From positions 62,001 to 126,000 of the forward strand of contig PHBP01000002.1 in NCBI GenBank assembly GCA_002842035.1: a stretch of DNA of 64,000 nt. The letters run 5' to 3'. Positions 2,154 to 53,921 of the stretch are shown piece by piece. How positions within the stretch are numbered: the first letter of the stretch is position 1; every line of letters starts with the position of its first letter. Position numbers and translations under genes: made by a program. Source of the DNA: Candidatus Cloacimonetes bacterium HGW-Cloacimonetes-2 (GTDB lineage Bacteria > Cloacimonadota > Cloacimonadia > Cloacimonadales > Cloacimonadaceae). The notes under the pieces were generated by a model that did not search any database, was not told where the DNA came from, and worked only from the letters and a program-made list of their open reading frames with translations.

Positions 2154-2271
2154 TTTAATCACTCCTGAATTATTATCTTGGGACACCATAAAGGCGTCAT
2201 CAACTCGTATCGTTTCTTTAGCGTCAATAGCCTTTTGTCAAGTTAAAAAAAGTACTTGCTTCCTGCTTGAC

Positions 2272-2320
2272 AGGATGCTTCTATCCTGCTTCTATCCTGC
2301 TTGAATCCTGGATGAACATA
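2272..2320 (+). repeat. 11-bp-periodic intergenic repeat module, copy A
   Basis: In the 228-bp gap between the GNAT gene and the acyltransferase lies a short tandem array with an 11-bp period: an AGGATGCT cap, then TCTATCCTGCT twice, then TGAATCCTGGA and TGAACATACAG. The same arrangement recurs near 12.2, 42.7 and 53.8 kb. The cap and first unit can pair (AGGAT with ATCCT). The rest of the gap shows no gene. Confidence 0.75.
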
Positions 2321-2381
2321 CAGGAAGCAGCTTATGTATCAGCATCTTATAAGAATCGGTCAAATAGGGGCGCAAAAGGAC

Positions 2382-4413: not shown

Positions 4414-6132
4414 TTATCTATTCATAGGGATAATGCGAACCCTTGCAGCAGCTACCTTTTGGTTGATCCAGTTGTTGAACCAATCCTCTGAGAGGCTTTC
4501 CACATAAAGTCTTCGCATTATGACAGGATCAGCATTATAAGATCTGGGATACTCGACCCTGCGCACAATCGGGATCACGATCAAATCATCCAGGATGTAA
4601 AATGCAGGGGATTCCTTGCGTTGCTGGGCTCTGAGGGCTTTGTAATACAGCAAGTGAAGATCCAGGCCTGATACGGGATCATTTATACTCTGCCCTCGCA
4701 TCGGAGTGAGCTGGTATCTTGTATCACCGGGATTTAGTTGATATGCCGGAGCACTCTGATCCAGCCAGATACGGGCTTGCTGTTTGGTAAGATCAAGCTT
4801 TTGAGTATGAATCAGTATCTGATTGATCTGATCTCTCACCTCAGCCAGGGGCTTTGGCTCACGGGCTTGCTTTTGCATAAGATCGACAACTATCCAGGAT
4901 GAAAACTTGCGAGAATAGACCGGCTCTAGGATTCCTGGCCTGTTAACACTTTCTAGCTGTGTATTGATGGAGCTTAGCGCTTCTTCATCTTCCAACCAGA
5001 TTGATTCGGGGCTTACCCTGCTTACGTCGCAAATAGGCAAATCCATCTCATCGCAAGCACGTTCAAAACCTACCAAAGTAGTAAGCTCTTTGAGGTTCTG
5101 AGCTAGTCTGCGGCTGGCTGTAATGCTGGCTTCTCTCGCCTTGATTGGCATTGAGAGCTTGGTGAGCTTTACCATCGATCTTGTGAGCTGCTCCATCCTG
5201 TAAACATCTATCGATTCAGATGTTTGGATGGGAACGCTGAAAGCACCGGGAGCCAGCTCCAGAACGGCTGCTTTGATCTCTCTATCCAGATCCGGGATAA
5301 ACAGAAAGCCCATATCAGAAATGGTGATTCCGGCTCTGCTTGCAGCATCTCCACGAGTGATAACTTCGAAGCTTTGACCTTCTCTGAGCAAGCTCATAAT
5401 GCTGTCTCTCACTGCTTCTGTATAAGCTATGTCTGTATCGGATGGGATTGCTTCGATTTTGGCATAACGAAGGGTGTAAAAAGGTTCTCTCAAATAGCTT
5501 TGTAGATTAGCATTGTAATAGGCCTCAATATCGAGATCGGAGATGCGGATGTTTTGGCTATTGCTGTCAAAGATCAGCCAATCTATATCAGCTCGAGCAC
5601 CCAAAATCTGATTGATCGACCTGCGTTCACTACGTGTAAGGAACTCGTGATCAATCAGCTTTTCTTTCAGCTTCATAATCGGAATTACATTGTCGTAATA
5701 GTGTTTGCGTACAGGGCGGAGATTGTATGGGGAATCGTAGTTTAGAGATTGCTGATAGGCACGGATGTCAAAGGTGTTATTAACCTTGAACCAGGGAGAA
5801 TTGCGGACGTAATCAGGCGGATTTGCCATCAGTGTGTCAATGACTTCCTGGTGACTTACTTTGATATTGTATTTGTCGTAGTAGTCTTTGAGTATGATAA
5901 ACTTAGTGATATTGAGCCAGGTGGTTTGTTCCAAAGCCTTGCGTTCCTCAGTATCCGGTGGACGTCCGTTTTCGGTATAGAAGTTTTCGTAGTGGCTTCT
6001 ATATGAGTCCATAAACTCGGAGTAGGGGATAGGAGTGCCGTTTACGACTCCGGCAGAATTGGCTGTATTGATGCTGCAGGCGGTGATCAGTGCTGCCAGA
6101 GCAAGGAATGCGAAGAGGATGAGTTTTCTCAT
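4414..6132 (-). CDS. Parvulin-type peptidyl-prolyl isomerase lipoprotein (SurA/PpiD-like)
   Basis: A 572-residue exported protein with a lipoprotein signal: a short basic start, a hydrophobic stretch, and ALITAC with the lipidated cysteine at residue 19. Residues about 25-200 look like a SurA/PpiD-type helical chaperone domain. Residues about 200-320 contain a parvulin-like region (an ARYAKIEA-like strand, then GQSFEVI.RGDAAS and DMGFLFIPDLD) with weak conservation of catalytic positions. A second long helical/beta region follows. It probably assists folding of outer-membrane or secreted proteins in the periplasm. Its ATG overlaps the mutS stop by 4 bp. Isomerase activity is uncertain because the catalytic residues are not clearly preserved. 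Confidence 0.75.
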   Translation of the reverse strand: MRKLILFAFLALAALITACSINTANSAGVVNGTPIPYSEFMDSYRSHYENFYTENGRPPDTEERKALEQTTWLNITKFIILKDYYDKYNIKVSHQEVIDTLMANPPDYVRNSPWFKVNNTFDIRAYQQSLNYDSPYNLRPVRKHYYDNVIPIMKLKEKLIDHEFLTRSERRSINQILGARADIDWLIFDSNSQNIRISDLDIEAYYNANLQSYLREPFYTLRYAKIEAIPSDTDIAYTEAVRDSIMSLLREGQSFEVITRGDAASRAGITISDMGFLFIPDLDREIKAAVLELAPGAFSVPIQTSESIDVYRMEQLTRSMVKLTKLSMPIKAREASITASRRLAQNLKELTTLVGFERACDEMDLPICDVSRVSPESIWLEDEEALSSINTQLESVNRPGILEPVYSRKFSSWIVVDLMQKQAREPKPLAEVRDQINQILIHTQKLDLTKQQARIWLDQSAPAYQLNPGDTRYQLTPMRGQSINDPVSGLDLHLLYYKALRAQQRKESPAFYILDDLIVIPIVRRVEYPRSYNADPVIMRRLYVESLSEDWFNNWINQKVAAARVRIIPMNR

Positions 6133-11921: not shown

Positions 11922-12156
11922 TGTGATTGCAATCCTCGCTTGTGATTTTGATTGAAGCAGCAATACCCGTGCTTTCTCTCAATTATTATTTGGATTTTGT
12001 GTATCAATACGCTCAGTTCTTACTCTGAAAGCCATACTGATTCCGTCAAGCTTTTTTTTGCTTGTGAACAAGCTTTCAAATCATTATCGGAACACCATTT
12101 TTATCGCTCCCATCATCCAGACTAAAAGCCCTCGGACTCTCCGCTTGCATGACACA
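11922..12156. other. Gene-free upstream region of the methyltransferase-rho transcript
   Basis: I see no coding frame here. On the minus strand there is a TTGACG element near 12045, in a stretch rich in A/T runs, that could be a -35 box, but no convincing -10 partner at 16-18 bp. Promoter activity for the methyltransferase-rho transcript is likely somewhere in this interval but cannot be fixed by reading. Confidence 0.35.
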
Positions 12157-12240
12157 ATGCTAAAGCATTGCCGGATAGACAGATGATACTTCTTCAAGCA
12201 GGATTCAAGCAGGCTACAAGCAGGGTAGAAGCATCCTATC
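12157..12240 (-). repeat. 11-bp-periodic intergenic repeat module, copy B
   Basis: On the minus strand this reads GATAGGATGCT, TCTACCCTGCT, TGTAGCCTGCT, TGAATCCTGCT, TGAAGAAG: five units in strict 11-bp register, as at 2.3, 42.7 and 53.8 kb. The ATGCTAAA box at 12157 matches a position in the longer 42.7/53.7 kb copies, so this looks like a partial copy of the long element. The remaining DNA to 12406 holds a small hairpin (TCTCCC with GGGAGA near 12310) and no gene. Confidence 0.75.
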
Positions 12241-12406
12241 AATAGGAGCGCACTTTGCAAAGCCTCTGCTTAAGCTCGCTCATATATATCTGCCAGCTCT
12301 CTCCCTCATATCTCCCTCTTTGTGGGAGAATCGTGGGAGATACCTGGGTGTGGCGTACGATTAAGCTTAAGAGGAGGCTCAATAAAAGCTAAAAAAGGTT
12401 GGATGC

Positions 12407-39509: not shown

Positions 39510-39986
39510 TCAGCCTTGCAGGATCAGGTTGTCAAGCTGAGTGTAATTGGTCACGGTTTTAAGGTAGCCGGCATCCACTGCTTTTGAGACTGATCTGGCT
39601 GGCGATTCCAAGCTGATTATATCAGCCAGGCTGATCGTCTTCAGATCGATGTGCGTGGGATCACTATCGTACCAAGCCCACATAATCTTGATGAAGATTG
39701 ATTTCGAGCTGGGCATTTGCCGCAAATGCTTAGACGACTTTGGCAGGTTTTGTCTGGCATTCTTTTCGGCATAAGTCTTGAGATCCTGAATGTATAGGGG
39801 ATCAGCCTCTTTGTAGAGGTCATTCAGGTGTTTCGAAATCTCGGACATTAGCTGATGCGGCTCCCCGAGGGTCGGATAGACGTATTGACGTCCAATACAC
39901 AGACGGTTGTTGTACCAGCTTGAGTACACAACCTCACCATACTTGCCGGAGTAACTTGATACTCCATTGTTGAAGGATACTTTCAT
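39510..39986 (-). CDS. Unknown 158-aa protein, paralogue of the gene at 42974
   Basis: A 158-residue protein of no family I recognise. Its N-terminus MKVSFNNGVSSYSGKYGEVV matches the layout of the 148-aa protein at 42974 (MKV.F.NG...SG..G), and a second conserved block (SIFIKIMWAW ... IDLKTISLADIISLE ... SVSKAVDAG) aligns with that protein's C-terminal half. There is no signal peptide or membrane segment. AGGAG precedes the ATG and a strong terminator follows, so it is a single-gene unit. The gene sits at the edge of the accessory zone. Confidence 0.7.
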   Translation of the reverse strand: MKVSFNNGVSSYSGKYGEVVYSSWYNNRLCIGRQYVYPTLGEPHQLMSEISKHLNDLYKEADPLYIQDLKTYAEKNARQNLPKSSKHLRQMPSSKSIFIKIMWAWYDSDPTHIDLKTISLADIISLESPARSVSKAVDAGYLKTVTNYTQLDNLILQG

Positions 39987-40517
39987 GTATCACTCCTATA
40001 ATCAGGGGCTTTAAATTTGGTCATTCCAGTCTGCCTTCCGAGTTATGATCATTACTGATCTTACTATCTCTAACTCAGTCTGAGCAGTCGGAATTACCAT
40101 CCCCTATAATCCTACGGTTTCCATTTCTCTCTAATTTGCTTCCATCATAAAACTTAATATGCGATCTGTCTGCTAACAGCCATATAAATCAGTGTATAAC
40201 GAGTCCTAATTCAATCCTCTTAATTGTAATAGTGCTTGAACGCAAAACCGTAACGCGATATACTTAAAGCAATTAATGATATAGCATTTAGTTTAACTAT
40301 TTTTAATGCTTGTTTTGTATCTTACTTGTAATCAATAACATACAAGTTCATTAAAAAATGTGATTATCCTTGACAAAAAAACAGCAATGGCGTTAATGTA
40401 CGCATATACCCTCCTGATCTATGGCTATTGCCATAAATAATCAGTCAGGAATTAGGGAAAGGATTAATATGGAAGACCCTTTTTTTGCTAAAAGGGAAAA
40501 GAAAGGAGGTAAGGAGA
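39987..40517. other. AT-rich gene-free region and structured leader
   Basis: No coding frame is visible in these 530 bp. A TTGACA at 40370 with weak -10 candidates near 40394 may start a plus-strand transcript. Downstream, TATGGC pairs with GCCATA and CTGAT with ATCAG (40410-40455), giving a two-stem hairpin in the leader. A very strong ribosome site (AAAGGAGGT, 40502-40510) precedes an ATG at 40518 that opens only 29 codons. Confidence 0.45.
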
Positions 40518-42372: not shown

Positions 42373-42471
42373 ATCAGCACCTCACTCAGTGAATTTCACT
42401 TTCTTGCAATAAGTTTTACATTATATATTTGGTCAATGCCTTTTTTAGTTTTTGGGGTTACGGGTAGCGAA

Positions 42472-42616
42472 TGTGGGAGCGACATCCTGTCGCTCTGATA
42501 GGCTGTGCGTCAGGATGACGCACCTACACAGGCTGGACAGGGATTGATTTTGAGTGAGATGTGGGAGCGAGCTCCTGTCGCTCTGATATGCAGTGCGTCG
42601 GGATGACGCACCTACA
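42472..42616. repeat. Two tandem REP-like palindrome doublets
   Basis: Two 57-bp units (42472-42528 and 42560-42616) are repeated with an 88-bp period. Each holds two hairpins, GAGCGACA/TGTCGCTC and GTGCGTCA/TGACGCAC. Their outer sequences TGTGGGAGCG and CGCACCTACA make the two hairpins an inverted pair of one REP-like consensus TGTRGGWGCG. This is the doublet arrangement of bacterial BIMEs. No transposase for them is visible. Confidence 0.85.
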
Positions 42617-42653
42617 ATAATGGCTTTGGGCAGCCCTCTCTCCCCTATCCCCT

Positions 42654-42865
42654 CTGCCTGATAGGATGCTTGTATCCTGCTTCTACCCTGCTTGAATCCT
42701 GCTTGAACAAGCATCAAACAACTGCGATATATGCACTTAGCATACCGGCACCCAATAGGCAAGCGTAAAGCACTGTCTTCTAAAGAATTGCCGGGAGATT
42801 CCCGGGCCTATCCCGGGTCTATCGCAGGTGTGGGCCTGTGGATCTCCCGGCTTGGGGCTTGCCTC
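42654..42865 (+). repeat. 210-bp structured repeat, copy C
   Basis: Its reverse complement matches 53595-53804 along its whole length, roughly four positions in five by eye. The tail (42662-42713) is the 11-bp-periodic module. The head contains a long inverted repeat GCCGGGAGAT (42790-42799) with ATCTCCCGGC (42842-42851) enclosing smaller stems. The interval to the next gene otherwise shows only A-rich DNA. Confidence 0.9.
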
Positions 42866-42936
42866 TTCCCCGCACTTTCTTCAGTGAGAATAGAAAAAAA
42901 ATCAGTGATGGAAGCAAAAAGCACCCAAATGGAATC

Positions 42937-42963
42937 CGTAATATAGTAGAACGAAATATTACG
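42937..42963 (+). promoter_or_regulatory. Inverted repeat just before the ribosome site
   Basis: A perfect CGTAATAT / ATATTACG with an 11-bp spacer ends directly before the GAGG ribosome site of the gene at 42974. It could be an operator or an RNA hairpin affecting translation. Confidence 0.5.
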
Positions 42964-42973
42964 AGGTAAGAAA

Positions 42974-43420
42974 ATGAAAGTTGCATTTCAAAATGGCATC
43001 ACCGGATTCAGCGGAAGAGCGGGAGATCTGATCTTTTGCTACAACAAACTCTTTCAAACTGTCTATGCCCGGCGCAATACCTATCCTGCACGCACACAAG
43101 AAAATGAAAGGATTGGCAGGATCACCGGGCATCTCTACAAACTCCAGATATCCGAAGATTACAAAGAGGATATGAGGCTGTATCTGACGCGTTACAACGC
43201 CCTGAGGGAAAATCACAGGCAACCGCTGCCAAACTGGTCTTCCCTGTACCTGAAGCTGATGTACAAGATGGCAAAAGCGATGCCGGAGCTGGATTTGAGC
43301 ACTATCACCAGGGATCAGATCCACAGCCTGGAACTACCCTGTATCAGTATCAAAAAGGCAATCGAGGCTGGGCTCTTGCCCAAAGTCCTGGGTTGGCAGC
43401 GCTACACTAATCTCTTTTAG
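42974..43420 (+). CDS. Unknown 148-aa protein, paralogue of the gene at 39510
   Basis: A 148-residue protein similar along its whole length to the 158-aa product at 39510-39986. Both open with MKV.F.NG...SG..G, share an RR/RQ..YP block near residue 35 and a C-terminal block LYLKLM/IFIKIM ... DL.TI...I.SLE ... S..KA.EAG. There is no signal peptide, and I recognise no family. GAGG precedes the ATG, with a perfect inverted repeat overlapping it upstream. It follows a repeat nest and precedes a secreted protein. Confidence 0.7.
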   Translation: MKVAFQNGITGFSGRAGDLIFCYNKLFQTVYARRNTYPARTQENERIGRITGHLYKLQISEDYKEDMRLYLTRYNALRENHRQPLPNWSSLYLKLMYKMAKAMPELDLSTITRDQIHSLELPCISIKKAIEAGLLPKVLGWQRYTNLF

Positions 43421-53475: not shown

Positions 53476-53594
53476 GTGTTATAGAACGGCACTTTTCTCG
53501 ATCATTAGTCTTTCAATCTGCATTGACTAATTATGACTAACACTACTATCTCTACTCTCTGCCCCCTATCCTTTATGAAGCAGATGCAGGGAGC

Positions 53595-53804
53595 AGGCAA
53601 GCACCAAGCCGGGAGATCCACAGGCCTACGCCTGCGATAGACCCGGGATAGACCCGGGAATCTCCCGGCAATTCCTTAGGAGACAGTACTTTAGCCTTGC
53701 CTCTTGGGTGGTATGATGCTAAACGTATATACAACAGTCGTTTGATGCCTGTTCATACAGGGTTCAAGCAGGGTACATACAGGGTAGAAGCATCCTACAG
53801 GCAT
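53595..53804 (-). repeat. 210-bp structured repeat, copy D
   Basis: This is the inverted partner of 42654-42865. The head has GCCGGGAGAT (53608-53617) and ATCTCCCGGC (53660-53669), enclosing CAGGC/GCCTG and two CCCGGG boxes; the tail (53742-53799) is the 11-bp-periodic module. Differences between copies largely spare the outer stem. The rest of the 53355-53990 gap holds no gene. Confidence 0.9.
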
Positions 53805-53921
53805 GATACGAAGCAGGGAAAATGCCGCAAAGCCAGACCCGTAGATCACTTCAAAGCTATCGCAGAGCCACGTTTGTATCATATCCTATACCTTCTTCCG
53901 CCACATAGGGGAAAATAGGGC

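Follow-up and report, generated by a model that had tools for sequence, protein, structure and literature searches.

The window, the whole 64,000-bp stretch analysed here, belongs to a genome (G000) of 2,507,010 bases in 14 contigs and carries two inverted copies of an intergenic repeat. A repeat search of the window delimited the inverted arms at 42662–42893 and 53566–53797 (232 nt, 82% complementary), which bears out the claim of the first-pass annotation that the reverse complement of positions 42654–42865 aligns with 53595–53804. Both copies are composites of two elements, designated E1 and E2. In the first composite, E1 occupies positions 42644–42762 of the minus strand (model match at 42647–42760, 88.6 bits, and alignment; TRF array at 42667–42705) and is joined to E2 at 42763–42893 of the same strand, with a hairpin formed by GCCGGGAGAT (42790–42799) and ATCTCCCGGC (42842–42851) and 11-bp units inside it. 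In the second composite, on the plus strand, E2 (53566–53696, hairpin 53608–53617/53660–53669) is adjoined by an E1 with a degenerate right end (53697–53815; model match at 53700–53797, 65.8 bits). The 10-bp outer stem described previously is present in both copies; its sequence shows no difference between them, so these two copies alone are uninformative on compensation. The 11-bp-periodic tail is also confirmed, with TRF period 11 at 42667–42705 and 53757–53786, and each copy has a stronger fold than every one of 200 shuffles preserving its dinucleotides (z −5.4 and −4.5). Two more E1 copies lie in the window: one without E2 (2253–2371, minus strand, 84.6 bits) and one followed by the start of another element, E4 (12138–12256, plus strand, 89.3 bits).

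Besides the interval itself, the search of G000 gave full-length matches at the 53.6–53.8 kb copy and at a third composite copy, G000:C2:425155–425378 (88%); about 40 further matches covered just the tail. The E1 tail makes up half of the interval 42654–42865, and the composite of E2 and E1 occurs at three unrelated loci. The Rfam scan of the window revealed one tRNA and no family matching the element.

Several other features of the window can be mentioned. Two copies (91%) of GTGGGAGCGACATCCTGTCGCTC...GTGCGTCAGGATGACGCACCTACA adjoin the interval at 42471–42528 and 42559–42616; they resemble the GTAG-hairpin repeats flanking the genome's only Y1 transposase match (L127) on both sides and thus are probably ordinary REPINs with a RAYT. 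Two small proteins, encoded at 39510–39986 and 42974–43420, look alike by eye (MKVxFxNGxxxxSG start) and had no NCBIfam match; a related inverted repeat is located upstream of each (40104–40147 and 42906–42949). One window protein contains a T9SS sorting domain.

E1 and further 11-bp families in the same genome

E1 is a fixed-length element of about 115 bp made of 11-bp units. The first-pass annotation had proposed searching the full genome and its relatives for the repeat. A sequence-only model, with the best 150 candidates scored per genome, found 86 E1 copies in G000 and none in G001 and G002, two other genomes of the genus. A profile built from 20 copies detected 34 good copies in the 464 kb examined (the window and 20 further stretches). 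The alignment of 25 of them is ungapped over approximately 119 columns, with a mean column identity of 77%. Conservation is highest in the 11-bp array TTCATGCAGGA TTCAAGCAGGA TAGAAGCAGGA TACAAGCATCC and far lower in the left half, where a few letters are conserved. Inspected by eye, the ends GCTCCCTTT.../...AAAGGGAGC look like an inverted repeat in several copies and weakly so in others, the ends of E2 and E6 are similar to them, and about five of the 34 copies run into the start of E4. A non-exhaustive search covering about 18% of the genome letters found no autonomous partner with E1 ends.

Of the E1 copies, 33 had a gene called on either side, and every one of them is intergenic, lying in 9 convergent, 19 tandem, and 5 divergent gaps. 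According to the simple purpose-made gene caller used for these gap and orientation counts, there are 92 gaps of at least 130 bp (16 convergent, 48 tandem, and 28 divergent), 33 of which contain E1. In tandem gaps, 10 copies are oriented with the genes and 9 against them; there is no orientation bias.

E2 is an 11-bp-phased hairpin present in at least eight copies, seven found by pattern plus L147 in the stretches examined. All eight fold (z −3.5 to −6.3), with a register that varies from copy to copy, since the 11-bp spacing of the units lets the hairpin shift by a unit. The number of units also differs among the copies, so alignment columns are not homologous pairs, and the E2 alignment was left out of the pair counts. 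Stem conservation with variable joints, as described previously, thus holds for E2, but not for the E1 tail.

The period itself is more widespread than either element. Self-matches in the 464 kb (counting window of 44, at least 28 matches) were found at 34 loci at lag 11 and seven at lag 22, and none of the remaining lags between 6 and 23 gave more than two. Intergenic gaps of G000 also contain at least four more families with 11-bp phasing: E4 (unit GTGGGAGATAC), E5 (unit TTGATTTGCTC), and E6 (unit GATCACTAGGG with GGTGGCCACC or a similar palindrome), all found as lag-11 matches, and E3 (GATTCACAGGG), which was seen beside E1 and has a fold z of −10.0. A fold z below −3 was obtained for 10 of the 38 arrays of this genome.

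Arrays of other sequence in related genomes

Relatives from the family of the window's genome contain 11-bp arrays of other sequence, or dialects, many of which are long inverted repeats. The dialect GTCAATACGGA occurs in G010, G015, and G027; AAGACTCGGCG, GGTTAAGGATG, and GCGGCGGAACT in G001; and AAGCGGTATGA and GCAGGCATGCT in G002; further dialects occur besides these. The array folds reach z values of −12.9 in G001, −12.7 in G027, and −15.8 in G015. The G001 locus L295 includes a near-perfect palindrome (5904–6043, z −12.9) with arms of about 30 bp consisting of GCGGCGGAACT-like 11-bp units, which is unusually long for a stable bacterial palindrome.

Two successive TCANTACGGA units were found in 12 of the 124 genomes of the phylum, all from the window's family (12 of 49, compared with 0 of 75 outside it), with counts from 1 to 242, and the distribution of this dialect is patchy inside a single genus. 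One dialect of the relatives has 140–240 pattern matches per genome in four species. AAGCGGTNTGA was found in two of the 49 family genomes, with 52 matches in G002 and one in G032. The dialects are absent from many genomes of the same genus. No lag-11 excess was detected either in 278 kb of the other families of the order or in a mixed control of 273 kb with the searched pattern masked; each gave three matches, no more than at other lags. Among the 16 family genomes sampled besides G000, six had no lag-11 match, the samples being small; of the ten with matches, the sole one of G012 and one of the two of G016 look like chance. A single AT-rich tandem outside the family, AATTATGCAAC at 11 bp in G043 from another family of the order (L199, 14403–14482), may also be due to chance. 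When the named genome collection was searched for relatives with a DNA pattern, 38 scattered matches were obtained, concentrated in no single taxon.

A unit motif shared by the dialects (approximately WTCANNNNGGR) was suggested by eye and rejected: in the rotation and strand alignment of 18 units, 110 of 300 permutations were as good, and for two sets of eight units, the numbers were 154 and 16 of 300. The copies in the window belong to a large, unnamed kind of intergenic element, in which the letters change by species and the 11-bp beat stays.

Spacing of the copies and candidate explanations

The E1 copies are overdispersed, and three relatives with other dialects agree. The 68 neighbour distances on eight contigs of known length have a minimum of 5,025 bp. 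No pair is closer than 4.8 kb, against 15.1 expected for uniform placement within contigs (none of the 4000 simulations gave zero), and on contigs C8 and C10, there are none against 9.4–9.7 expected from permutations among real intergenic gaps (0 of 4000 as low); this threshold, like that of 4.2 kb used below, was chosen after the distances were known. The minimum distance is 4,878 bp in G015 (76 elements, 28 neighbour distances, 9.6 pairs expected), 7,278 bp in G010 (73 elements, 6.4 pairs expected), and 8,409 bp in G002 (42 elements, 2.8 pairs expected). The G010 and G015 assemblies are fragmented, so close pairs may be missed there, whereas G000 is not fragmented in this way. In G010, array matches are located 100–250 bp from the starts of its contigs C1, C9, C45, C51, C80, C133, C139, C169, and C183; the arrays probably break this assembly.

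The density of E1 also varies. Per 100 kb, it is 7.3 on C3, 7.0 on C8, 6.2 on C10, and 1.2 on C11 (chi2 33.3, 8 df, p 5.5e-5), and C2 has 10 copies in its first 150 kb and five in the remaining 381 kb. C3, C8, C10, and the first 150 kb of C2 differ up to six-fold from C11, C1, and the rest of C2. The GC skew on C8 and C10 indicated no usable origin or terminus.

These properties suggest that the 11-bp elements are not an RNA but small DNA sites that are mobile or organise the chromosome. The explanation that we tentatively prefer, as plausible rather than probable, is that they are protein-binding arrays that behave as small, non-autonomous mobile elements, each with an immunity zone like that of Mu and Tn7. 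The element body is an array of 11-bp units, inverted around a dyad in E2 and in many elements of the relatives, with each unit probably serving as one binding site, on one helix face, for a multimeric sequence-specific protein. In this view, the elements most likely disperse like MITEs or foldback elements through machinery recognising the array, and a copy would suppress further insertion up to about 5 kb away, in the manner of Mu and Tn7 ends, which act via an AAA+ partner. Mobility is indicated by the fixed length, the inverted-looking ends, the composites at several loci, and the absence from sister species; a DNA-binding protein is indicated by the conserved array letters, the independently varying arms, and the missing strand bias. 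In size, the exclusion zone matches Mu cis-immunity, which is strongest around 5 kb (PMC7350765), and this favours non-autonomous elements with immunity. The dispersal, the 11-bp phasing, the unit sequence specific to each species, the lack of covariation of the RNA type, and the 5-kb exclusion are observed, whereas the protein, mobility as the source of the dispersal, and immunity as the source of the spacing are inferred. The earlier proposal of a mobile element or protein-binding array thus stands in outline, given the 86 E1 copies, the composites at three loci, and the absence from two sister species. A phage or plasmid origin was also considered and rejected, since no match was found.

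Some observations are at variance with the mobile-element explanation. There is no enrichment of target-site duplications at E1 for k = 2–10 at boundary offsets of −8 to +8 and −14 to +8. Arrays of other families also avoid E1: of the 11 non-E1 arrays on C8 and C10, four directly adjoin an E1 copy (within 356 bp) and seven lie at least 4.2 kb away, while for a place picked at random on C8, the probability of lying 0.5–4.2 kb from E1 is 0.51. Avoidance across families is not predicted by the immunity of one family.

Since the exclusion seems to be cross-family, the density differs between regions, and arrays recur at orthologous gaps, sites organising the host chromosome are kept as a strong rival, possible although somewhat unlikely. 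A family-specific nucleoid, segregation, or domain-boundary protein would bind the arrays, which would be needed every 5–20 kb in certain regions; the spacing would be functional, and the units would co-evolve with the protein. The uneven density (6–7 per 100 kb on C3, C8, and C10) and the regular spacing on C8 (CV 0.49, P = 0.0002) agree with this, but spacing on C10, C1, and C2 is irregular overall (CV 1.0–1.1). Orthologous gaps were compared in 74 cases, in 27 of which the gap measured at least 60 bp in one or other genome. Among these 27, an array in the sister's own dialect was present at three of five E1 gaps and at none of the 22 others, which fits conserved positions as well as mobility; two of the three arrays were called by the shared string CCATCCTTAACCTCAGT, and the automatic threshold alone gives one of five. 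This comparison is confounded by gap length: counted by hand for the non-E1 gaps of at least 130 bp in G000, the figure is 0 of 6. The many genomes of the same genus without dialects and the location of different families side by side within 0.4 kb likewise speak against host sites. A broader, more speculative version is a family-wide chromosome-spacing system, in which a protein would read 11-bp units, one per helical turn; the dialects would be replaced between species, while the period, the inverted layout, and the minimum spacing of about 5 kb would persist, and the arrays would divide part of the chromosome into loops.

A role at the RNA level, with transcribed inverted arrays forming long hairpins, 3′-end structures, terminators, or processing sites, is improbable. 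It would account for the strong folds of E2 and E3 and of arrays in several relatives (z to −15.8), for a phasing of exactly 11 bp, which is one turn of the A-form, and for the presence of E1 in 9 of the 16 convergent, but only 5 of the 28 divergent gaps of at least 130 bp. However, the RNA that the first-pass annotation had considered was not supported: RNAalifold on 25 E1 copies gave five weak pairs and a covariation of 0, E1 shows no strand preference (10 and 9), and most arrays of G000 fold poorly. In G015, the arms vary independently and without compensation, matching in 16 of 28 cells, with 16.8 expected from shuffling (two variable positions in 14 inverted arrays among the matches listed); in G009, they match in 7 of 12 against 7.0 (four arrays). 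In G064, they match in 13 of 14 against 9.6 (P = 0.03; seven arrays, four of them alike), which runs counter to the preferred explanation and is probably one inherited change. The array units look as though they are read singly, not paired, and as far as tested, a structured RNA is not supported.

Very improbably, the spacing is a by-product of copies less than 5 kb apart being lost by recombination or hidden by assembly: repeats do break contigs in G010 and G015, where close pairs could be missed, but G000 is in 14 contigs, its E1 copies differ sufficiently from one another (77% identity) for an assembly to resolve them and for recombination between them to be poor, and it shows zero pairs against 15.1.

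Comparison with known systems

FB elements have tandem sub-repeats within inverted repeats. Like MITEs and miniature foldback elements, the elements described here are short, non-coding, multi-copy, and dispersed in gaps, with ends that look inverted in several copies and sub-repeats within inverted arms; unlike them, they keep a strict 11-bp phase over unrelated sequences and a 5-kb exclusion, and no target duplication was found. They share with REP/REPIN sequences and their RAYTs the intergenic location, the palindromic character, the species-specific sequence, and the high copy number, but E1 is devoid of the GTAG/GGAG-plus-hairpin unit. Membership of E1 among REPINs was rejected: the one Y1 transposase (RAYT) locus of the genome, L127, is flanked by other repeats, GTAGGTCCGTC.. 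hairpins of the REPIN type.

The ends of Mu and Tn7 are arrays of protein-binding sites. The likeness consists in the arrays of sites, putative here, and in the exclusion of copies from each other's neighbourhood, which for Mu is strongest within about 5 kb (PMC7350765); the difference is the lack of a 5-bp duplication, and the transposase and its AAA+ partner are putative. In the ParR/parC system, direct 11-bp binding units (iterons) form two arrays; the unit length is the same, whereas here there are tens to more than 100 chromosomal copies. Macrodomain sites of the matS/MatP type are dispersed over the chromosome with regional density. The present elements resemble them in both respects; in contrast to matS, each is an array of units rather than one short site, and its unit sequence turns over between species.

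A limited literature search turned up no account of bacterial repeats that form a class by their period and not by their sequence. Through the exclusion zone, tens of copies in each genome are linked to a single process. If the zone reflects immunity, the copies would form a genome-wide natural record of target immunity conferred by elements of about 115 bp; if the spacing is functional, they would provide domain sites that can be mapped directly in an uncultured group.
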